Position numbers and translations under genes: made by a program. The notes beneath the pieces were generated by a model. It had not been told where the DNA came from. It searched no databases and saw only the letters and a list, made by a program, of their open reading frames with translations. Source: a virus. Taken from it: a stretch of DNA of 27,268 nt. Below, piece by piece: positions 3,241 to 26,590 of the stretch (position 1 is its first letter; each line of letters starts with the position of its first letter). The DNA lies in the IMG/VR virus record IMGVR_UViG_3300023112_000079, positions 1 through 27,268 of that record; one strand, written 5' to 3'.

Positions 3241-3603
3241 ATGAAAGGTTACATTTTAAAGCAAAACGGTAAGAAGTTTTCAGTAGTGTGCAATGATGAA
3301 TATTGCCAAGTGGTGGTGAGTGTAGAAGGTGCTATTGAGGAAAAGACAAGCTTTCCAGTGGGGAGTTTGGATGACTTTGAGACAGTGAGTGAGTTTAAAG
3401 TTGATGTGGAGGAGGCTAGGGAGGGAGCACACCATCTAAATGTGAATGTTCTTAATAAGGAAACACTCTTAGATGCTCAGGAGAATCCAGATAAGTACCA
3501 TTCCCTAGTAGTGAGGTGCAGCGGTTATGCGATACGGTGGAATGCTTTTAATAAGGAGCAACAAGAAGATATCCTAGACAGAACGTTTACCACTAAGTTT
3601 TAA
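3241..3603 (+). CDS. hypothetical protein, 120 aa
   Basis: AAGGAGATATA precedes ATG 3241. The product is soluble and acidic, beta-rich at the N-terminus ([20 protein letters not shown]) with a more helical C-terminus. No catalytic motif or membrane segment is visible and no family is recognised. It is the last of the small-gene run begun at 1248 and is followed by an independent promoter for the homing endonuclease. Confidence 0.65.
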
Positions 3604-5598: not shown

Positions 5599-6756
5599 TT
5601 GAAAGAAATTAATATGGATAATATTGTTGTACAAAAAAGAGATGGGCAGGAAACAGGTTTCAATGAGGATGTGATTGCATTTGCGATTGATAACGCGGCT
5701 GCGGATGTAGGTGAGCCTCTTGATGCACAAGAGCTTGCTGTAAAGGTGGTTAAACGTTTAAATGAAGGTGTTGTTAGTGTAGAGGAAATTCAGGATGCTT
5801 GTGTGCATGTGCTTATGGTGAGTAAGTATAAGAAAACAGCTGAAGCTTATATTAAGCACCGCAACGATAGAGATCAAGTACGGGAAGGTAAATCCCCTCT
5901 TTTAGAGGACATTGCAAGCTTCTTAGATGGAAGTGATGATGCTCACGCAAAAGAGAATAGTAACAAGAGTTCAGAACAGATAGTGGCACATCGAGACGCT
6001 GTTGCAGGTATACTAAGTAAGCATATGATGAAAACGATCTTTGATAAAGATGTCTATGAAGCGCACAAGAAAGGGGCAATACACGCACACGATGGCGACT
6101 ACCTAATCAGCAAAGGTATCCACAATTGCGGGGTTTATGACTTTGAGTATATGTTAGCTAACGGTGTTAAACTCGGTGACGTAGAAATTGAAACCCCTAA
6201 GTCTGTAGGTACTGCAGCAAATGTCTCTTGTCAGGTGCTTAGTAAAATATCTGGTTCTTCGTATGGTGGTCAGTCTATGCACGAATTTGACCAAGTGATG
6301 AAACCTTATGTAGAAAAGAGCTTGAAGAAGATTAAACTTGTTCAAGCTAAGTACAACTTACCAGAAGAATTTGTAGAAGAAACTTTAAGAAAAGACATCT
6401 ATGATGCTTGTCAAACATTTATTTATCAAATCCAAACCGTTACATCAAACAACGGGCAATCAAGTTTCGCAGCGATCAGCTTATCCTTATCAACAGATCC
6501 TATCTGTAAAATGGTTAAGGAGGAGTACCTAAAATGTCATATGCAAGGTATTGGGGAAGATCATAAAGTACCTATCTTCCCGAAAGTACTTTACTTTGTA
6601 GAGGAAGGTGTGAACCTTAACAAAGAGGATGTGAATTATTCCGAATTCCGTCTTGCATTGGAGTGTTCCTCTAAGATGATGTACCCTGACCTAATCATGG
6701 CACCTAATAATAGAAAAATGACTGGAGGTTCTGAGAATGTTGTAACATCAATGGGT
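5599..6756 (+). CDS. nrdD: anaerobic ribonucleoside-triphosphate reductase, exon 1
   Basis: Encodes residues 1-386 of class III ribonucleotide reductase, which makes dNTPs from NTPs without oxygen using a glycyl radical formed by NrdG. Residues about 8-95 form an ATP-cone regulatory domain (VQKRDGQETGFNEDVIAFAI...KYKKTAEAYIKHRN). HAHDGDYLISKGIHNCGVYD puts Cys177 where NrdD has its first active-site Cys. TTG 5599 is used because AAGGGG lies 7 nt upstream; ATG 5614 is an alternative. Coding ends ...VTSMG at 6756, and the apparent TGA stop at 6757 is the first base triplet of a group I intron. With exon 2 the protein is 698 aa, about the usual size. Confidence 0.93.
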
Positions 6757-7077
6757 TGAGATAGTAGCCCATTTAAAACGATATTAACGAGATTGGTAAT
6801 CTTGGGTAGTTAGAAATAACTGCTAACGGTGTATCCTCACAGCGATGTGATAGGTTTGGAAACAAATTGGAACGTAAGAGAGGCTAAGAGTTATTAACTT
6901 AAGCTAATACCGTGGCGAATGATTAAATTCATGGCTGTAGAGACTAATGTGTAATGAGTGTAGCACAGGTAAGGATGATTTAACCACATTCTGAAACGTA
7001 TCGCTCCTTAACAGGTAATGCTGATGGGGAAAATTTAGTCCGACACACTGAGAGAAGTGAAAGCTTCATGTGTGTAG
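6757..7077 (+). ncRNA. group I intron in nrdD, no internal ORF
   Basis: The 321-nt insert is bounded by textbook group I signals. P1 forms between exon AATGGGT (6750-6756, with the last A of the preceding codon) and GCCCATT (6767-6773), with the U-G pair at the 5' splice site. P7 forms between GACTA in the R element (6942-6946) and TAGTC in the S element (7036-7040). The intron ends in G7077, followed by TGC; 7078-7080 can pair with 6764-6766 as a short P10. Splicing restores a perfect NrdD frame (M-G-C-R-S-F). There is no ORF inside, so mobility would need an outside nuclease. Confidence 0.9.
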
Positions 7078-8016
7078 TGCAGAAGTTTTGTACCGAAGTA
7101 TATTGAAAATGGTAAAGAGAAAATGACAGCTAGGTTTAATCTTGGCGTAGCTACTGTATCTATTCCTTATGCTGCATTGACAGCGAAGCGAGATAATACA
7201 GATTTTTATGAGGAACTTGGTAAATTGTGTGACTTAGCTTATAGAGCAAACATGACACGTATAGACCGTATGAAAGGAACTAAAGCAAAGGTAAGTCCTA
7301 TCCTTTGGCAATATGGGGCTTTAGCAACATTAGAGCCAGAAGATACTATTGACCACTTATTCTACAATGGTAATGCAACAGCTTCTATCGGGTATGCAGG
7401 TTTATATGAAGCGCTTGAGATCCTCGGAAATACAAGTAAGGAACTTGGTATGGAGGTACTTAACTGCATAAAAGACAAAACCGTTGAGTACACAAAAGAA
7501 ACAAACATCACGTTCAGCCCCTATGGATCTCCATTAGAATCGGGTTGCCTACGTTTTGCAGAGTGTTTGAAGAAAGAGTTTAAAGATTTGTGGGATTTTG
7601 ATAGAAAATTCGTAACTAACTCTTTCCACAGACCAGTGTTCTCTGATATTGACATGTTAGAGAAATTCGATTGGGAAGGTGGTTACTATATGATTAGTTC
7701 AGGTGGTAATGTTAATAATATAGAATTACCTAATATGGCTAATAATCTGGATGGGTTTGAAGGTGTTGTCAAAGCTGCTTACGATAAAGTTAATTACCTT
7801 ATCTGTAATCAGCCCATAGACAAATGCTTTGAATGTGGATTCAGCGGCGAATTTGAAGCGCTTGAAGATGGATATCACTGCCCTGATTGTGGCAATAATA
7901 ATCCAGACACTGCAAACTGTACTCGAAGAGTTAGTGGTTATATACACGATGCGCTTGCTCGTCCCGCTAATGATGGGAAGTATGAGGAACAAAGTGTACG
8001 GTTTAAGAATGTTTAA
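7078..8016 (+). CDS. nrdD: anaerobic ribonucleoside-triphosphate reductase, exon 2
   Basis: Encodes residues 387-698. The first codon is Cys387 of MGCRSF. Its spacing from Cys177 (210 residues) matches the two active-site Cys of known NrdD proteins (79 and 290 in T4, 175 and 392 in E. coli, from memory), so Cys387 is probably the thiyl-radical Cys. A zinc site follows: CFEC (636-639) and CPDC (654-657). The glycyl-radical motif is RRVSGY with Gly673, followed by ARPANDGKYEE. An internal ATG at 7123 could be mistaken for a gene start, but it lies within exon 2. Confidence 0.92.
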   Translation, partial: CRSFVPKYIENGKEKMTARFNLGVATVSIPYAALTAKRDNTDFYEELGKLCDLAYRANMTRIDRMKGTKAKVSPILWQYGALATLEPEDTIDHLFYNGNATASIGYAGLYEALEILGNTSKELGMEVLNCIKDKTVEYTKETNITFSPYGSPLESGCLRFAECLKKEFKDLWDFDRKFVTNSFHRPVFSDIDMLEKFDWEGGYYMISSGGNVNNIELPNMANNLDGFEGVVKAAYDKVNYLICNQPIDKCFECGFSGEFEALEDGYHCPDCGNNNPDTANCTRRVSGYIHDALARPANDGKYEEQSVRFKNV

Positions 8017-8026
8017 GTGAAAATAA

Positions 8027-8046
8027 GGAGGTGTGTACACACCTCC
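8027..8046 (+). repeat. perfect 20-bp palindrome between nrdD and nrdG
   Basis: GGAGGTGTGTACACACCTCC is perfectly self-complementary, 11 nt after the nrdD stop and just before the nrdG ribosome binding site (8050-8056). As RNA it gives an 8-bp stem with a GTAC loop. It could be an operator, an mRNA-processing hairpin or a nuclease site. No T-run follows. Confidence 0.8.
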
Positions 8047-8062
8047 AATAAAGGAGAATATT

Positions 8063-8524
8063 TTGAGATACCTAAATTATGTGAGAGCAGATGTATTAAA
8101 TGGAGAAGGTTTAAGAAACGTACTATGGTTGAGTGGATGCAGCCACAATTGTAAAGGGTGTTTTTCACCACATAGCCATAACCCTCAGAATGGAGAGCTT
8201 GTAACACAAGAATTCACGGATAAAATCTTAGATGACCTAAACAAACCATTCATCAGCGGGATCACGGTCAGCGGAGGTGACAGCTTCCACAAAGCTAACT
8301 ACGAAGACCTACTGTTACTTTTACAACGTATAAAAGAAGAACAGCCTGAAAAGGACATATGGGCGTATACAGGGTACACTTTAGAACAATTACAATCTGA
8401 TGAAAAACGTAAAAGACTTTTACCTTACATTGACACACTTGTAGACGGTCGATTCGTAGAGGAAAAGAAAGATTTGACGTTGAAGTGGGTAGGTAGCTCA
8501 AATCAGAGGGTGATTAAGTTGTAG
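8063..8524 (+). CDS. nrdG: anaerobic RNR activating protein (radical SAM)
   Basis: Uses SAM and a 4Fe-4S cluster to put the glycyl radical on NrdD. TTG 8063 is chosen because AAGGAG lies 6 nt upstream and the product then starts MRYLNYVRADVLNGEG, like known NrdG N-termini. An upstream GTG at 8033 lies inside the palindrome. The cluster motif is CSHNCKGC (Cys26, Cys30, Cys33), followed by GITVSGGDSF (SAM binding) and WAYTGYTLEQL. It has 153 aa, close to T4 NrdG. It lies directly after nrdD as usual. Confidence 0.93.
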   Translation: MRYLNYVRADVLNGEGLRNVLWLSGCSHNCKGCFSPHSHNPQNGELVTQEFTDKILDDLNKPFISGITVSGGDSFHKANYEDLLLLLQRIKEEQPEKDIWAYTGYTLEQLQSDEKRKRLLPYIDTLVDGRFVEEKKDLTLKWVGSSNQRVIKL

Positions 8525-11641: not shown

Positions 11642-11714
11642 GCAGGTATGATGTAACAGGATAGCATCCAAGTCTTCTAAACTTGTTGTTAGAGTTCAAA
11701 TCTCTATACCTGTA
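11642..11714 (+). tRNA. tRNA-Arg (TCT)
   Basis: The full cloverleaf folds by hand. The acceptor is GCAGGTA with TACCTGT (G-U at the end). The D stem is ATGT/GCAT with GG in the loop. The anticodon stem CAAGT/ACTTG closes loop CTTCTAA (anticodon TCT). The T stem is TAGAG/CTCTA with loop TTCAAAT. CCA is not encoded: the discriminator A is followed by C and then the next tRNA. It reads AGA, frequent in these AT-rich genes but rare in many gammaproteobacterial hosts. Confidence 0.9.
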
Positions 11715-11715
11715 C

Positions 11716-11792
11716 GGCCCTTTAGCTTAATTGGTTAAAGCAGCAAGCTCATAACTTGAAGAGTCTCGGATCATTTCCGAGAAGGGCCACCA
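11716..11792 (+). tRNA. tRNA with CAT anticodon, probably tRNA-Ile2
   Basis: The acceptor is GGCCCTT/AAGGGCC with an encoded ACCA end. The D stem is GCTT/AAGC with TTGGTT in the loop, the anticodon loop is CTCATAA, and the T stem is CTCGG/CCGAG with an atypical ATCATTT loop. The acceptor and D-arm sequence (GGCCCxTTAGCTxA) resemble E. coli tRNA-Ile2, whose CAT is modified to lysidine to read AUA, more than elongator tRNA-Met (GGCTACG). It is not initiator-like. It starts one base after the end of tRNA-Arg. Confidence 0.88.
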
Positions 11793-12931: not shown

Positions 12932-14239
12932 ATGACTATTAAATACTATCTTGTTGGCGGTGCTTGTAGAGACATCTTAATGGGAAATACCCCAAAAGAT
13001 TATGACTTTGTTGTAGTTGGTGCAAAAGTCTCTGACTTTGAGTATCTGGAACAAGTTGGTAAGGATTTCCCTGTGTTTTTAGAACCTACCTATAAGTGGG
13101 AATTAGCATTAGCACGTACTGAACGTAAAACTGGTAGGGGTTATAACGGATTTTCTTGTGATGTTAATAATGTTACTTTGGAAGAAGATTTATCAAGACG
13201 TGATCTAACCTTGAACTCAATCGCTATTGAAGTGGATTGGGAAACCTCATTACTATTAGGAGAACCTGTAACTGTGGGGACATGGATTGATCCTTTCAGT
13301 GGACGACAAGATATCAAAGATAAGGTCTTGTCACATACAACAGATGCTTTTGCAGAAGACCCTGTTAGAGTGCTTCGTGTTGCACGTTTTCTTTCAAGAT
13401 TTGGTGATGAATGGGAAGTTGACTACTACACATGTAAACTCATAGCTAATATGTTTATGTATGGAGCACTAAAAGAACTTGTTCCCGAAAGAATTTGGCT
13501 TGAGGTTAGTAAATCCCTCTCAGGAAAAACACCTAGTATATTCTTTGAATTTTTAAGATCAGTTGATATGTTTGAAGAGGTTGAAAGTATGAGAGACACT
13601 TCTCAACGATTAGCCCATCATCCAGAAGGAGATGTATGGAAACATTGCCAGCTTGTAATGGACTACGCAGCCAAAACTTACAATGATCCTGAAATAACTT
13701 TTGCAAGTTTTACTCATGATTTTGGCAAAAGTATATCTCACGAGAAATACAGTAACAGCCACGGGCACGAGAAAGAAGGTTTACAACCTATCAACGATTT
13801 CTGTGACAGGTATAAAGTTCCTAACCGTTATCGTGAACTTGCCCTATTAGTTTGTGAAAATCATACACGAATTCACGGATGTATGTCTCGTGGGTCAAAC
13901 GATTGGATGCGCCCAAAATCGATTTACAAGCTCTTCGAATCAACATCAGCACTTACTAAACCTGAACGCTTCGAGAAGATACTAAAAGCTTGTATTGCCG
14001 ATGCAAGAGGTCGTGGAGCTACACCTGAACAAATTAGGGCGTTTGAAGCAAAGCCTTACCCACAAGCTGAGTATTTACGTGAATGCCTACAAGCTGTAAT
14101 CGCTTTAGACACCAAAGCAATTTCTTCTGAACTACTTGCAAAAGGTAAGAAAGGGTGTATGATAGGCGAACAAATAAGAGTTGCACGTATCGATGCTATT
14201 CGTACTGTAACAAATAAATGGAAACTTAAGGAGAAATAA
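12932..14239 (+). CDS. cca: CCA-adding enzyme (tRNA nucleotidyltransferase)
   Basis: Adds or repairs the 3' CCA of tRNAs. The 435-aa protein aligns along its length with E. coli Cca: YLVGGACRD (6-14), catalytic carboxylates in DYDFVVVG (Asp23, Asp25), GKDFPVFL, ALARTERK (59-66), RRDLTLNSIA (89-98), EDPVRVLRVARF and PERIWLE. It also keeps the gammaproteobacterial C-terminal HD domain: HHPEGDVWKH (229-238) and THDFGK (His262-Asp263). A small insertion lies around 101-118. AAGGAGAAATT precedes the ATG. It is next to the tRNA cluster, where tRNA-Arg lacks CCA, which explains its use. This domain order suggests a gammaproteobacterial origin. Confidence 0.95.
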   Translation: MTIKYYLVGGACRDILMGNTPKDYDFVVVGAKVSDFEYLEQVGKDFPVFLEPTYKWELALARTERKTGRGYNGFSCDVNNVTLEEDLSRRDLTLNSIAIEVDWETSLLLGEPVTVGTWIDPFSGRQDIKDKVLSHTTDAFAEDPVRVLRVARFLSRFGDEWEVDYYTCKLIANMFMYGALKELVPERIWLEVSKSLSGKTPSIFFEFLRSVDMFEEVESMRDTSQRLAHHPEGDVWKHCQLVMDYAAKTYNDPEITFASFTHDFGKSISHEKYSNSHGHEKEGLQPINDFCDRYKVPNRYRELALLVCENHTRIHGCMSRGSNDWMRPKSIYKLFESTSALTKPERFEKILKACIADARGRGATPEQIRAFEAKPYPQAEYLRECLQAVIALDTKAISSELLAKGKKGCMIGEQIRVARIDAIRTVTNKWKLKEK

Positions 14240-17069: not shown

Positions 17070-18077
17070 ATGAGTAAGAAAAAATTAGCAGTGGTGATTG
17101 GACGTTTCCAACCGTTCCATAATCAACATTTGTATTTAGTAGAAGAGGCTCTTAAACATGCTGAGAAGGTTTTGATTGTTGTTGGTAGTATTAATCAACC
17201 ACGTACACCTAAGAATCCATTCACTTTTGAAGAACGTAAGTGTATGCTCAGATACGCTCTAATAGGAAGTAAAGATTCTGTCTCTGTTGTAGGTGTAGAG
17301 GATTACGTCCATGACTCTGATTGGAAACAAAGCGTACAAGATATTGTTTCATCAGATAGTAATGACATTGTGTTAGTTGGTCATTCCAAGGACGAGTCAA
17401 GTTATTATCTTAATCTATTCCCAGAGTGGGATTTTAAAGAGGTGGCTGCTGTAGAAGATTTAAGCTCTACTGATATAAGAGATGAGTGGTTTCTGGATGA
17501 GGGTATCTCTACAGATGTCCCTTGTAACGTAGCTAACTTTATGGACAATACTATGTTCACAAAATCTTGGTTTGGAGAAGTACAGACGCAAGCGGTACAT
17601 AATAAACGTGAGTTAGATAAATTAACCAAAGGTTACCCTTATCCTAAATCACTCAATGTGTGTGCAGCGGATGCATTAGTATCTTGTTATGGAAAACACT
17701 TGCTTATCAAACGTAAAGAAAATCCATACAAAGGTTGTTGGGCGTTGGCTGGCGGTCACAAAGATTCAAATGAAACCTTCTTACAATGTGCTTTACGTGA
17801 ACTGGAGGAGGAGACTTCACTCGCCCTTACAGAAGATGATATGCTTCAAGATAAAATGTTCGACAAGCCAAAACGTGACCCTGTATGCACAAAAGTTAGT
17901 ATGTGTCATTGGTTTGGTATACCTAATTTTAAATATGAGAATGGCTCCCTTCCAGAGGTAACTCCAAAAGACGATGCTGTAGAAGCTAAATGGTTTACAA
18001 CAGATGAATTAGTTGATATGAAAGGTGAGATTGCTTTCGACCATTACGAAATGCTTACACACTTTTTAGACTTATAA
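17070..18077 (+). CDS. bifunctional NMN adenylyltransferase / Nudix hydrolase
   Basis: Joins NMN and ATP to give NAD+, with a C-terminal Nudix domain. The 335-aa protein begins AVVIGRFQPFHNQH (8-20), the NadM nucleotidyltransferase signature with its HxxH-type turn. SSTDIR (132-137) matches the conserved ISxTxIR motif. The Nudix box runs 229-251: Gly229, Glu235, RELEEE (243-248), with Ser250 in place of the usual Gly. The architecture is that of Synechocystis slr0787 and vibriophage KVP40 NatV. It lies 15 nt before the NAMPT gene, forming a two-step nicotinamide-to-NAD+ pathway. The Nudix part may clear ADP-ribose. Confidence 0.92.
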   Translation: MSKKKLAVVIGRFQPFHNQHLYLVEEALKHAEKVLIVVGSINQPRTPKNPFTFEERKCMLRYALIGSKDSVSVVGVEDYVHDSDWKQSVQDIVSSDSNDIVLVGHSKDESSYYLNLFPEWDFKEVAAVEDLSSTDIRDEWFLDEGISTDVPCNVANFMDNTMFTKSWFGEVQTQAVHNKRELDKLTKGYPYPKSLNVCAADALVSCYGKHLLIKRKENPYKGCWALAGGHKDSNETFLQCALRELEEETSLALTEDDMLQDKMFDKPKRDPVCTKVSMCHWFGIPNFKYENGSLPEVTPKDDAVEAKWFTTDELVDMKGEIAFDHYEMLTHFLDL

Positions 18078-18092
18078 TAAAGGAGAAATAAT

Positions 18093-19493
18093 ATGAAAGA
18101 TTTATTAAACACAAACTTATGCCTGATGACAGATGGTTATAAATTATCCCACTGGTTACAGTTTCCAGAGGGTATGACAAAATCTTTTTACTACATTGAG
18201 AGTCGTGGTGGTAAATTCGATAAGATACAAACAGCTGGTGTACATTACCTAACTTACATTCTTGAGAAAGGTGTTACTATCGCAGAGGTTGAAGAGGCTA
18301 AGGAAATCTTTGATGACTATATTGGTGAAGGTATCTTCAATTATGACGGTTGGATGTCTATTGCTAAAGACTTGAAAGGAAAGCTGCCGATTAAAGTGCG
18401 ATCTGTTCCAGAAGGAGTCGTTGTCCCTACTAAGAGTGTTGTTTCCACTTTTGAGACAGAAGAGGGTTACGGATGGTTAGCAGGTTACTTAGAAACGCTT
18501 GCATTACGTTGCTATTGGTATGCATCTACTGTTGCAACAATCTCTTATGAATCCAAGCTTACTTTGCAAAAAGCGTTGAATGACTCAGCTGATATGACAG
18601 AAGATGATATGAAGATTTGTCTATCCTATCGACTACATGATTTTGGGGCTAGAGGTGTATCTTCTGGTGAGAGTGCTGCTATTGGTGGTTTGTCTCACAT
18701 GTATAATTTCGAGGGTACGGATACTTTAGAGGCAGTTCAATTAGCTCGTAAGTTATTTAAAGCGAAAGCTGGTGCTTCAATACCTGCTAGAGAGCACAGT
18801 ACAACAACTTGTTATTTACGAGAAGGAGAATATAGTGCGTTTATGAATTCGGTAGATAACTTTGGAGGGGGTACGTTTGCAGTTGTTATCGATTCCTACT
18901 CAACCAAAAATGCACTGGAATGGTTACTAACAAATGAAGACTTTCTTGATAAGCTGACAGAGCAAGGTGGGACTTGTGTATTAAGACCCGATTCTGGAAG
19001 TCCAATAGATATGGTTATGCTATGTCTTAACACGGCTTGGAAAAAGGTAGGTGGAACTATTAATAGTAAAGGTTTTAAAGTTCTAGACTCACGTTTTCGT
19101 GTTATCCAAGGGGATGGCGTTGACGGAGAGGAAATTAAACGCATCACAGAATGGGCAGTTTATGGAAATAAATTCTCTCAAGAAAATTTCCTATATGGAA
19201 TGGGTGGAGGCTTATTGCAACATTGTGATCGTGATTGGGGACGATGGGCAATGAAGTGTTCAGCTATGGAAGTAAATGGTGAATGGCGTGGTGTATTTAA
19301 ATCCCCTGAGACAGACCCTACAAAAACTTCTAAAGCTGGACGCTTGGACTTGGTTTTAGAAGAAGGTGTTTATGTCAATAAGGTGTTGGGTGATACAGAA
19401 GACTCTTTTGATAACACTGCAATGGTAACAGTTTTCGATTCAGGTGAACGATTAAATCTGCTGACTTTAGATGAGATCCGAAACAACAGTTAA
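18093..19493 (+). CDS. nadV: nicotinamide phosphoribosyltransferase
   Basis: Makes NMN from nicotinamide and PRPP. The 466-aa protein has all main NAMPT landmarks: DGYKLSHWLQFP (14-25), FYYIESRGG, HDFGARGVSSGESA (182-195), Asp210 in EGTDTLEAV, IPAREHST (230-237) with the catalytic His, VIDSYS (265-270), RPDSGSP (298-304) and QGDGVD (339-344). Its length is normal. AAGGAGAAATAAT precedes the ATG. With the preceding NMN adenylyltransferase it forms the pathway described as phage NARP2, which restores NAD+ after depletion by defence systems. Confidence 0.95.
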   Translation: MKDLLNTNLCLMTDGYKLSHWLQFPEGMTKSFYYIESRGGKFDKIQTAGVHYLTYILEKGVTIAEVEEAKEIFDDYIGEGIFNYDGWMSIAKDLKGKLPIKVRSVPEGVVVPTKSVVSTFETEEGYGWLAGYLETLALRCYWYASTVATISYESKLTLQKALNDSADMTEDDMKICLSYRLHDFGARGVSSGESAAIGGLSHMYNFEGTDTLEAVQLARKLFKAKAGASIPAREHSTTTCYLREGEYSAFMNSVDNFGGGTFAVVIDSYSTKNALEWLLTNEDFLDKLTEQGGTCVLRPDSGSPIDMVMLCLNTAWKKVGGTINSKGFKVLDSRFRVIQGDGVDGEEIKRITEWAVYGNKFSQENFLYGMGGGLLQHCDRDWGRWAMKCSAMEVNGEWRGVFKSPETDPTKTSKAGRLDLVLEEGVYVNKVLGDTEDSFDNTAMVTVFDSGERLNLLTLDEIRNNS

Positions 19494-21648: not shown

Positions 21649-21840
21649 ATGGAAAACAAAGTAGATTGGGTAGAAGCAACATTCTTAGCTGACAGGCTAT
21701 CTAAAGGCTTGTTGACATCTGATGCTATGAGTCAACGTTTGTGTAAGAGTTTAAAGCAAGGTGATGAACAATCTTACCTTACAATGAAAGTTGCACAAGC
21801 TATGGTACAATTCAACAAGAAGAGTGGAGGTAAGTCTTAA
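21649..21840 (+). CDS. hypothetical protein, 63 aa
   Basis: AGGAGATTGGAAT precedes ATG 21649. The product is a small helical protein (MENKVDWVEATFLADRLSKG..., NKKSGGKS). Its stop overlaps the next ATG (TAATG). It is the first gene behind the iterons. No family recognised. Confidence 0.6.
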   Translation: MENKVDWVEATFLADRLSKGLLTSDAMSQRLCKSLKQGDEQSYLTMKVAQAMVQFNKKSGGKS

Positions 21841-22046
21841 TGAAAATTAACTTCTCTCGTGAAACTTACGAAACACTCTTGTCCGAGGCTACAGAACAAA
21901 ATTTATCTATAGCTGCACTTATCACAACAATAGTAGAAACACACCAATCAAACAAAGACTCTCACAAAGGAGTAACAAATGGCACAACAATTAGAAAAGG
22001 GTTTCTTACAGATCCCTGTAGACGTATTAACAACAACAAAAATTAA
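21840..22046 (+). CDS. ribbon-helix-helix-like DNA-binding protein, 68 aa
   Basis: ATG 21840 overlaps the previous stop. Residues 1-37 (MKINFSRETYETLLSEATEQ, then NLSIAALITTIVETH) show the RHH pattern: a short strand, helix A with ETYETLLSEA, a turn, and helix B. RHH dimers are often autoregulators or partition/replication control proteins. The C-terminal 22 codons run out of frame into the next gene, an unusually long 68-nt overlap, so the tail may be incidental. The iterons upstream are a natural binding target to test. Confidence 0.6.
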   Translation: MKINFSRETYETLLSEATEQNLSIAALITTIVETHQSNKDSHKGVTNGTTIRKGFLTDPCRRINNNKN

Positions 22047-24820: not shown

Positions 24821-25207
24821 ATGACAACAGAAATAATAGCACTACTCGTAGCGTTCCAGATAAAGCATTTCTTATGCGATTATCCGTTACAAACACAATA
24901 TATGTTACGGAAAGGTCAGCGGAAAGGTTGGGTTAAGCCTTTGATTGAACATGTTAGCTGCCACTATGTATTTACAGGGTTTATTGCCCTCATATACACT
25001 TATATTACAAGCGGCACTCCCAGTTTAATACTGCTTGTAATGTTGCTAGATTTTGTAGTACATTTCACAGTGGATCGCATCAAATCTCATCCTGACTTAG
25101 GTGGTAAGTTTGAGAACACATCTCCTAAGTTTTGGTGGTGTTTAGGAGCAGACCAGATGTGCCACCATTTAACGCATTATGTTATTATTTGGATTTTGGT
25201 TAGTTAA
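24821..25207 (+). CDS. DUF3307 membrane protein
   Basis: GAGGAGAAATAAA precedes ATG 24821. The 128-aa product has the DUF3307 pattern: IIALLVAFQIKHFLCDYPLQ at the N-terminus, HVSCHYVFTGFIALIYTY, LLVMLLDFVVHFTVDRIKSH and a C-terminal DQMCHHLTHYVIIWIL. Four membrane helices with buried His/Asp (HFxxDYxLQ, HxxxD, DQxxHxxTH) define the family. Function is unknown; phage copies are common. Confidence 0.85.
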   Translation: MTTEIIALLVAFQIKHFLCDYPLQTQYMLRKGQRKGWVKPLIEHVSCHYVFTGFIALIYTYITSGTPSLILLVMLLDFVVHFTVDRIKSHPDLGGKFENTSPKFWWCLGADQMCHHLTHYVIIWILVS

Positions 25208-25219
25208 AGATAATTAAAG

Positions 25220-25254
25220 AAACTCCTTGCATTAGTTTATAAGGAGTTTATACT
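25220..25254 (+). promoter_or_regulatory. promoter within an inverted repeat (terminator-promoter overlap)
   Basis: AAACTCCTT (25220-25228) pairs with AAGGAGTTT (25241-25249). TTGCAT (25227-25232), a 16-bp spacer and TATACT (25249-25254) overlap it. TGAAATTGA follows (25258). It ends or insulates the DUF3307 unit and starts the 25285 unit. Confidence 0.55.
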
Positions 25255-25284
25255 ATGTGAAATTGAATAATTAAAGGAGAAACA

Positions 25285-25431
25285 ATGAAAACATTAAAAA
25301 TTGCAGAAACAATAACACTTTCCGAGGAGGAGTCTATTGCTTTCGTAGAGGCGTTAGAGAAGCCAGTTGAAGTTAATAAGAAGTTGTTGGAAGCAGGTAA
25401 GAGGTATAAGGGGGTTGAGGATGGAGAGTAA
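25285..25431 (+). CDS. DUF1778 antitoxin tail-like peptide, 48 aa
   Basis: AAAGGAGAAACA precedes ATG 25285. After MKTLKIAET the sequence ITLSEEESIAFVEALEKP and then VEVNKKLLEAGKRYKG follows the pattern of the C-terminal toxin-binding tail of DUF1778 antitoxins (TacA/KacA/AtaR class: LSxEDxxAFxEALxNPPxPNxxLxxAxxR). The N-terminal ribbon-helix-helix DNA-binding domain is missing, so only the part that wraps GNAT toxins is present. No GNAT toxin is adjacent. It may neutralise a host toxin. It overlaps the gp47-like gene by 11 nt. Confidence 0.6.
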   Translation: MKTLKIAETITLSEEESIAFVEALEKPVEVNKKLLEAGKRYKGVEDGE

Positions 25432-26590
25432 AAGTTTAGGAGAGAAGGTTGGAATTGTAGGTGATCTTCACCTCGGCTGTAAAGGGGGGTCTATAGCCTT
25501 TGCTGAATTCCAGCAAAACTACATCATGGAGATGTTAGATTATTATCACTCCATCCAAGTAGACATAATTATACAATTAGGTGACTACGTTGATATAAGA
25601 CGTTCAATCACAGGGGAGCTGGTACATTGGTTATCAAATACATTTATACCTAAGTTAGCAGAATATGGGATGACTTGGATACAGCTGGCAGGGAATCACT
25701 CTCAAGTAAGGCTATCCTCAAACGAACTAACGTGGGATCAACTTTTAGAAGATTTAGCTGTAGTTTATGGAAATTCTTGCGTAAAGGCTATAACGTCACC
25801 TACTGACATTAATATCAACGGTCTTGATCTGTGCTGTCTACCTTGGATCAATCCAAATACACATGATTTGACTGTTGAACATATTGAGAAGTCTGAAGCA
25901 ACTATTTGCTTGGGGCACTTTGAGTTGTCCAATATGTACTTGCTAAAAGGTGCGCTTAGTAAGCATGAAACTATTGATAAAAAACATTTAGCTAAGTTTG
26001 AGCAGACGATTAGTGGTCATTACCACACTAGCAGTAGTAGTGGTAACATTTTTTATACTGGAACTCCTTACGCCTTAAATTTCGGGGAATGGGAAGAACC
26101 TGCTGAGAATGGTATTTATAGCCTCGATACCTTGACGCAGAAATTAGAGTTCATCCCAAACAAACCAAACCAAAGCATGTTTACCGAAATCAACTACAAT
26201 TACCAAGAAATAGCATCTTCTCGCAAGGGTAAACTCTGGAATGACGTAGATTATCTTGAAAACGAACTTAACCTCAAGGACAAGATAATACGTGTCATCA
26301 TAACAGATAGTTCAAATAAATCGCACTATGCTAAATTTATAAAAGCCTTGCGTAGCGTCCAATGCATCAACTATACAATTATAGACACAACTCAATCTAT
26401 CGAGCTTGAGACTGAGGAAGTAGATGCTAATGATTTCAAAGTTAGTCCAATAGAAATACTACTTGATAAAATCAACACCATTGAGTATAGTGATTGTGAT
26501 GCTGATGATAAAGAAATTCGTTACGAAGCTATTGGCAATAAACTTAAGAGTGTGTATAATCGTTGCCAAGAAGAATCTAATTTGGTCTAA
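25421..26590 (+). CDS. gp47/SbcD-like recombination endonuclease subunit
   Basis: Metallophosphatase subunit of the gp46-gp47 (SbcCD/Rad50-Mre11) complex that resects DNA ends for recombination-dependent replication. Start at ATG 25421, inside the preceding gene's end; an in-frame ATG further upstream would lie inside that gene. The 389-aa protein shows VGDLHLG (13-19), QLGDYVD, LAGNHSQ, LGHFELS and SGHYHT, the five metal-binding motifs in order. AAGGAGAAGAT and the gp46-like gene follow, as in T4-type phages. Confidence 0.92.
   Translation: MESKSLGEKVGIVGDLHLGCKGGSIAFAEFQQNYIMEMLDYYHSIQVDIIIQLGDYVDIRRSITGELVHWLSNTFIPKLAEYGMTWIQLAGNHSQVRLSSNELTWDQLLEDLAVVYGNSCVKAITSPTDININGLDLCCLPWINPNTHDLTVEHIEKSEATICLGHFELSNMYLLKGALSKHETIDKKHLAKFEQTISGHYHTSSSSGNIFYTGTPYALNFGEWEEPAENGIYSLDTLTQKLEFIPNKPNQSMFTEINYNYQEIASSRKGKLWNDVDYLENELNLKDKIIRVIITDSSNKSHYAKFIKALRSVQCINYTIIDTTQSIELETEEVDANDFKVSPIEILLDKINTIEYSDCDADDKEIRYEAIGNKLKSVYNRCQEESNLV

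Follow-up and report, generated by a model that had tools for sequence, protein, structure and literature searches.

A phage-encoded 48-residue protein resembling the detached C-terminal tail of DUF1778 antitoxins is a candidate mimic directed against GNAT toxins

The GNAT toxins linked to DUF1778 antitoxins such as TacA, AtaR and KacA stop translation by acetylating aminoacyl-tRNA (PMC9177977, PMC5959882). According to data on KacA and TacA summarised in PMC9431474, the antitoxins of this family are mostly specific for their cognate toxins. In the literature that we found there is no demonstration that DUF1778-linked GNAT toxins serve as anti-phage defence. The use of solo antitoxins as phage counter-defence does have a precedent (PMC11481870). 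Both the DarG mimic directed against DarTG in V. cholerae (PMC11481870) and TifA, directed against ToxIN (PMC10853763), are toxin-less phage genes that block the toxin of a host toxin–antitoxin (TA) system. A phage TacA without a toxin has also been reported, the “Tac antitoxin peptide” encoded by ORF106 of Synechococcus phage S-CREM1, for which a role in countering host TA systems is proposed (PMC9964418). Among the phage antitoxin mimics in the literature found, none is the bare tail of a DUF1778 antitoxin. That the toxin-binding half of an antitoxin can suffice without its DNA-binding domain is known from MqsA, residues 1–76 of which are by themselves enough to protect cells from MqsR, although this fragment does not bind DNA (Brown et al. 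2009; PMC2791442).

Here we describe a gene from an incomplete linear virus record of 27,268 bp, the whole of which is referred to as the window (Table 1). The gene consists of 48 codons followed by TAA, and its product is MKTLKIAETITLSEEESIAFVEALEKPVEVNKKLLEAGKRYKGVEDGE. An earlier note, made from the letters alone, had taken these codons for the C-terminal tail of a DUF1778 antitoxin and nothing more, and profile searches bear this out. The Pfam model PF08681 (TacA1, formerly DUF1778; curated cut-off 21 bits) matches residues 2–42 over model positions 39–79 of 80, with a score of 28.6 bits (E 1.4e-6), and in a six-frame search of the record the tail was the sole TacA1 match (E 1.4e-7). The similarity anticipated by the note was also found with an HMM built from nine full-length antitoxins of plasmid, genome and phage loci, from which the window sequence was excluded; it scored the tail at 41.8 bits over positions 50–86 of 90. 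With the same HMM the maximum among 20,000 shuffles of the tail peptide was 11.1 bits, and the runner-up frame of the window reached 7.6 bits. A chance or compositional match is ruled out by these shuffles together with the register of the alignment. The toxin-binding C-terminal tail is common to TacA, AtaR, KacA (PF08681) and the window protein; the alignment is gapless over residues 7–43, and the L, AL, P, N and A conserved in cellular tails are kept (L12, A23, L24, P27, N31 and A37).

Table 1. Positions of the tail gene and of other features in the 27,268-bp window.
Feature	Position	Strand	Evidence or remark
Short glycyl-radical protein	3241-3603		
Anaerobic ribonucleotide reductase-like frames, apparently insertion-split, then NrdG-like gene	5599-8524	+	
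Two tRNA genes, Arg-TCT and Met-CAT	11642-11792		
CCA-adding-type tRNA nucleotidyltransferase	12932-14239	+	Vibrio and Shewanella phage relatives
NMNAT-Nudix and NAMPT, NAD salvage genes	17070-19493	+	
MqsA N-terminal zinc domain (toxin-binding half) without HTH, 73 aa	24389..24610	+	PF15731
DUF3307 membrane protein	24821..25207	+	PF11750 38.4 bits; between the two antitoxin-like genes
Hairpin AAACTCCTTGCATTAGTTTATAAGGAGTTT	25220..25249	+	Within 77-nt gap 5' of tail gene; without T-run
Shine-Dalgarno-like AAAGGAG	25273..25279	+	5 nt upstream of tail ATG; read from sequence
Solo TacA/DUF1778 C-terminal (toxin-binding) tail, 48 aa	25285..25431	+	Pfam, window-free HMM, AlphaFold2
gp47/SbcD-like metallophosphoesterase	25421..26590	+	Metallophos 35.6 bits; tblastn to SbcD-like proteins of 2365 phage records

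A profile made from six plasmid antitoxins and the 48-aa window peptide was searched against the PDB. At E ≤ 1 it returned the DUF1778 antitoxins 1y9b, AtaR (6gtq, 6ajm and 6ajn), KacA (5zgn) and 7zg5, as well as 7ak9_C, a chain of 36 residues deposited under the name “ABC transporter”, and nothing else. We take 7ak9_C to be a TacA tail peptide. Both this chain and 6gtq_C (46 aa) consist of a DUF1778 tail alone, without the RHH part, and the two are said to have been crystallised with their toxins, reportedly by Jurenas in 2019 and Grabe in 2021. Staphylococcal protein A repeats, which came up in a plain phmmer search of the PDB at 4–5 bits per repeat, were gone with the profile search. AlphaFold2 predicts helices at residues 14–25 and 32–42 of the tail, with a pLDDT of about 83–90 there. 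Foldseek gave no matches of the 48-aa model in the PDB, so short a model being an uninformative query.

Unlike the TacA, AtaR and KacA modules, the window tail is phage-borne, lacks the RHH domain for DNA binding and dimerisation, and has no adjacent GNAT toxin, its flanking genes being DUF3307 and gp47. Positions 1–37 of the TacA1 model are unmatched, and no RHH half was found in any of the six frames of the window, which rules out a frameshifted full-length antitoxin. For ORF 21840–22046, which has an RHH-like look, Pfam found nothing. A profile of seven DUF1778-linked GNAT toxins likewise detected no toxin of this type in the 27,268-bp fragment. The claim that the tail stands without an RHH part and without a toxin gene is thus upheld, for the fragment rather than for the whole phage. 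The record being incomplete, the tail could be the antitoxin of a GNAT toxin of the phage's own that is encoded outside the 27-kb fragment, and complete DUF1778–GNAT pairs are known in phage records (Escherichia phage Cyrano). We regard such a split module as very unlikely, since the cellular DUF1778 genes examined mostly adjoin their toxin, and since the toxin profile found no DUF1778-type GNAT toxin in BcepSaruman, BDU-MI-1, vB_CoeS_P1, Vibrio 2.275.O (a record labelled partial, which the search covered) or a 39-kb IMG/VR contig, whose tails are described below.

A tblastn search of plasmids with the tail returned almost exclusively DUF1778 antitoxins. At six of six annotated plasmid antitoxin loci inspected (V. 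parahaemolyticus, V. fluvialis, Aeromonas, Synechocystis, Xanthomonas and V. harveyi) a GNAT gene lies directly downstream, and the stretch AFVEALEKPV is an exact match between the tail and a Vibrio fluvialis plasmid antitoxin. The best relatives in GTDB are a Photorhabdus antitoxin, with 51% over residues 10–44, and a Chroococcus antitoxin that is followed by a GNAT gene. At the DNA level the window is related mainly to phages of Vibrio, and a host among the Vibrionaceae is therefore likely; the host bacteria are probably marine and Vibrio-like. The targets of the tail would most likely be the GNAT toxins of the Vibrio/Aeromonas/Photorhabdus branch of DUF1778. Queries with gp47 and the tail found no close relatives of the window phage in IMG/VR, and a DUF3307 query found three distant loci, each without a tail. 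The degenerate pattern PPxPN gave one full-length antitoxin in IMG/VR, the remainder being out of frame or unrelated.

RHH-less tails were found in several other phages. Burkholderia phage BcepSaruman encodes one as a protein of 48 aa, BcepSaruman_199, which matches TacA1 positions 44–78 with 29.0 bits and is 85% identical to the tail of BcepSauron. Further tails are encoded by Bradyrhizobium phage BDU-MI-1 (85 aa, 23.5 bits), the 39-kb IMG/VR contig (51 aa, 22.3 bits), Vibrio 2.275.O (22.1 bits, within a 296-aa protein with an unrelated N-terminus) and Yersinia GN1 (ORF73, 62 aa, 21.8 bits). In the phage tails over the Pfam cut-off the TacA1 match begins at position 37–45 of 80. Weaker matches that are still above shuffle level came from vB_CoeS_P1, with a gene of 46 aa, and from Vibrio phage 1.187.O, with a tail-like gene of 49 aa (L076:795-944); the latter gene sits between those for tRNA-Arg and tRNA-Met. 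ORF106 of S-CREM1 (L071:664-942), published as “TacA”, matches TacA1 positions 45–68 only, below the Pfam cut-off, and is therefore tail-only as well, without the RHH domain. It differs from the window peptide in being 92 aa long with an unrelated N-terminus, and the missing RHH half is not described in the passages of the S-CREM1 paper that were consulted (PMC9964418). Tail-like motifs that are not above shuffle level were seen in Pseudotevenvirus gp97, Serratia 2050HW_164, cyanophage B23 gp41 and a 110-aa protein of vB_CoeS_P1, and a small phage ORF (L061:751-1083) ends in a weak TacA-tail-like motif.

Among 143 gammaproteobacterial genomes, 51 of the 53 TacA1 matches include RHH positions and two are tail-only, a contrast with the phages that is suggestive but gives no estimate of frequency, because the phages were partly found with tail queries (ascertainment bias). 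One bacterial 106-aa protein (L063:2447-2767), which has no RHH domain, contains both a TacA tail and a weak MazE-like match. The two tail-only matches, together with a frameshifted copy in Halomonas, demonstrate that tail-only or broken copies exist in bacterial genomes, and the window ORF could similarly be a decaying remnant, a functionless tail left over from a DUF1778–GNAT locus that the phage once acquired. We hold this to be quite unlikely, since the ORF is intact, has a good Shine-Dalgarno sequence and is tightly packed against gp47, the RHH half has left no trace in any frame, and several unrelated phages show the same boundary. Furthermore, dN/dS is low, about 0.30, for the tail gene of the BcepSaruman/BcepSauron pair and similar for its neighbours, the numbers being small (6 synonymous and 7 non-synonymous changes).

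The window also encodes part of a second antitoxin, about 0.7 kb upstream of the tail gene. This protein matches PF15731 with 33.2 bits (cut-off 30) over model positions 1–71 of 131, where it ends, so that the HTH part is missing. Its four Cys align with the zinc ligands Cys3, Cys6, Cys37 and Cys40 of MqsA (numbering of PMC2791442), and phmmer gives a weak alignment with E. coli MqsA (3hi2/3ga8; E 0.03). No MqsR was found in the 27,268-bp window. The protein spans the same part as the isolated MqsA N-domain, which was laboratory-made in PMC2791442 whereas the window version is natural; compared with the TacA tail, the MqsA N-domain has a different fold and a different toxin, MqsR. Two unrelated antitoxins, both as toxin-binding domains only, are present within about 1 kb, and nothing else in the context of the tail gene speaks as strongly for a role against toxins. 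The DUF3307 protein belongs to PHROG 2470, “moron, auxiliary metabolic gene and host takeover”. A 123-aa protein of Alishewanella phage Slickus01 (L074:1033-1404) aligns weakly with the same half of MqsA, and a small phage ORF (L074:1418-1636) adjoins an MqsA-like fragment. In one bacterial genome a 58-aa tail-only TacA homologue (L062:2455-2631) lies next to genes for an MqsA-like protein and for a tRNA nucleotidyltransferase of the CCA type.

Downstream, the end of the tail gene and the start of the gp47/SbcD-like gene share 11 nt, as read from the sequence, and the two genes may be translationally coupled through this overlap. It could also indicate that the peptide is an adaptor that binds a GNAT-fold protein other than a toxin, or some other host or phage protein, for example as a gp46–gp47 accessory or a takeover factor. 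Similar motifs do form part of larger phage proteins whose N-termini are unrelated, such as the one in Vibrio 2.275.O, and weak tail-like motifs are present in Pseudotevenvirus gp97-like proteins. Nevertheless we consider an adaptor unlikely, since the known partner of the tail module is a GNAT toxin, and the tails of other phages are surrounded by small genes of unrelated kinds or flanked by genes for tRNAs. A role as a subunit of the gp46–gp47 complex, the alternative that the earlier note had named, is disfavoured because gp55 of Vibrio phage K469 directly precedes the SbcD homologue with no tail gene there, and because the tails of other phages are not located beside annotated SbcC/SbcD.

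In view of the toxin-binding module, the recurrence of RHH-less tails in unrelated phages and the MqsA N-domain nearby, the tail most likely serves to silence a GNAT toxin. The 48-aa protein is probably an antitoxin mimic with which the phage binds a GNAT toxin of its host and silences it. Since the same tail, likewise detached, is found in large phages that are unrelated, such tails probably disarm a bacterial toxin that stops translation. The tail peptide would be produced during infection and would fold into a pair of short helices against the GNAT toxin of the host, as the tail of the cognate antitoxin does. The bound toxin would be kept from acetylating aminoacyl-tRNA, and translation of phage proteins would go on. 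As the RHH half is missing, the tail should be unable to dimerise or to bind the host operator, and would thus be a toxin sink only, leaving the host TA operon untouched. This scheme, predicted from sequence comparison, presupposes that the phage expresses the tail, that the tail binds and neutralises a GNAT toxin, and that a target toxin is present in the host. The range of targets may be narrow, because antitoxins of the family neutralise non-cognate toxins to a limited extent (PMC9431474).

Phage antitoxin mimics are already known, and the bare DUF1778 tail would be a further one: phage genes surround it, the fragment contains neither a GNAT toxin nor MqsR, and it resembles the toxin-binding part of an antitoxin. 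The DarG mimic and TifA aim at toxins other than the GNAT target proposed here. TacA tails in several phage lineages, and the MqsA zinc domain and TacA tail in the window, lead us to the more tentative suggestion that large phages might repeatedly and independently carry type II antitoxins cut down to the toxin-binding module, with the DNA-binding domain removed. These would form a general and largely unannotated class of counter-defence peptides of 45–90 aa, which neutralise toxins without repressing the host TA operon or depending on it. If the reading of the tail is true, phages deploy the smallest usable part of an antitoxin against GNAT toxins that block translation, and this would suggest that DUF1778–GNAT modules matter against phages. 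The 48-aa tail of BcepSaruman, whose host is Burkholderia cenocepacia, makes the idea directly testable; E. coli has already been used to express TacT_Bce, a GNAT toxin of B. cenocepacia that acetylates Gly-tRNA (PMC9177977). It would also provide a search rule for tiny phage ORFs, namely the toxin-binding part of an antitoxin present, the DNA-binding part absent and the toxin absent.

NAD salvage genes like those of the window serve phages against defences that deplete NAD. The 30-nt hairpin upstream of the tail gene is not a classical terminator and carries AAGGAG in its 3' arm. It has a folding energy of -11.7 kcal/mol (z -1.95) and occurs once in the window.
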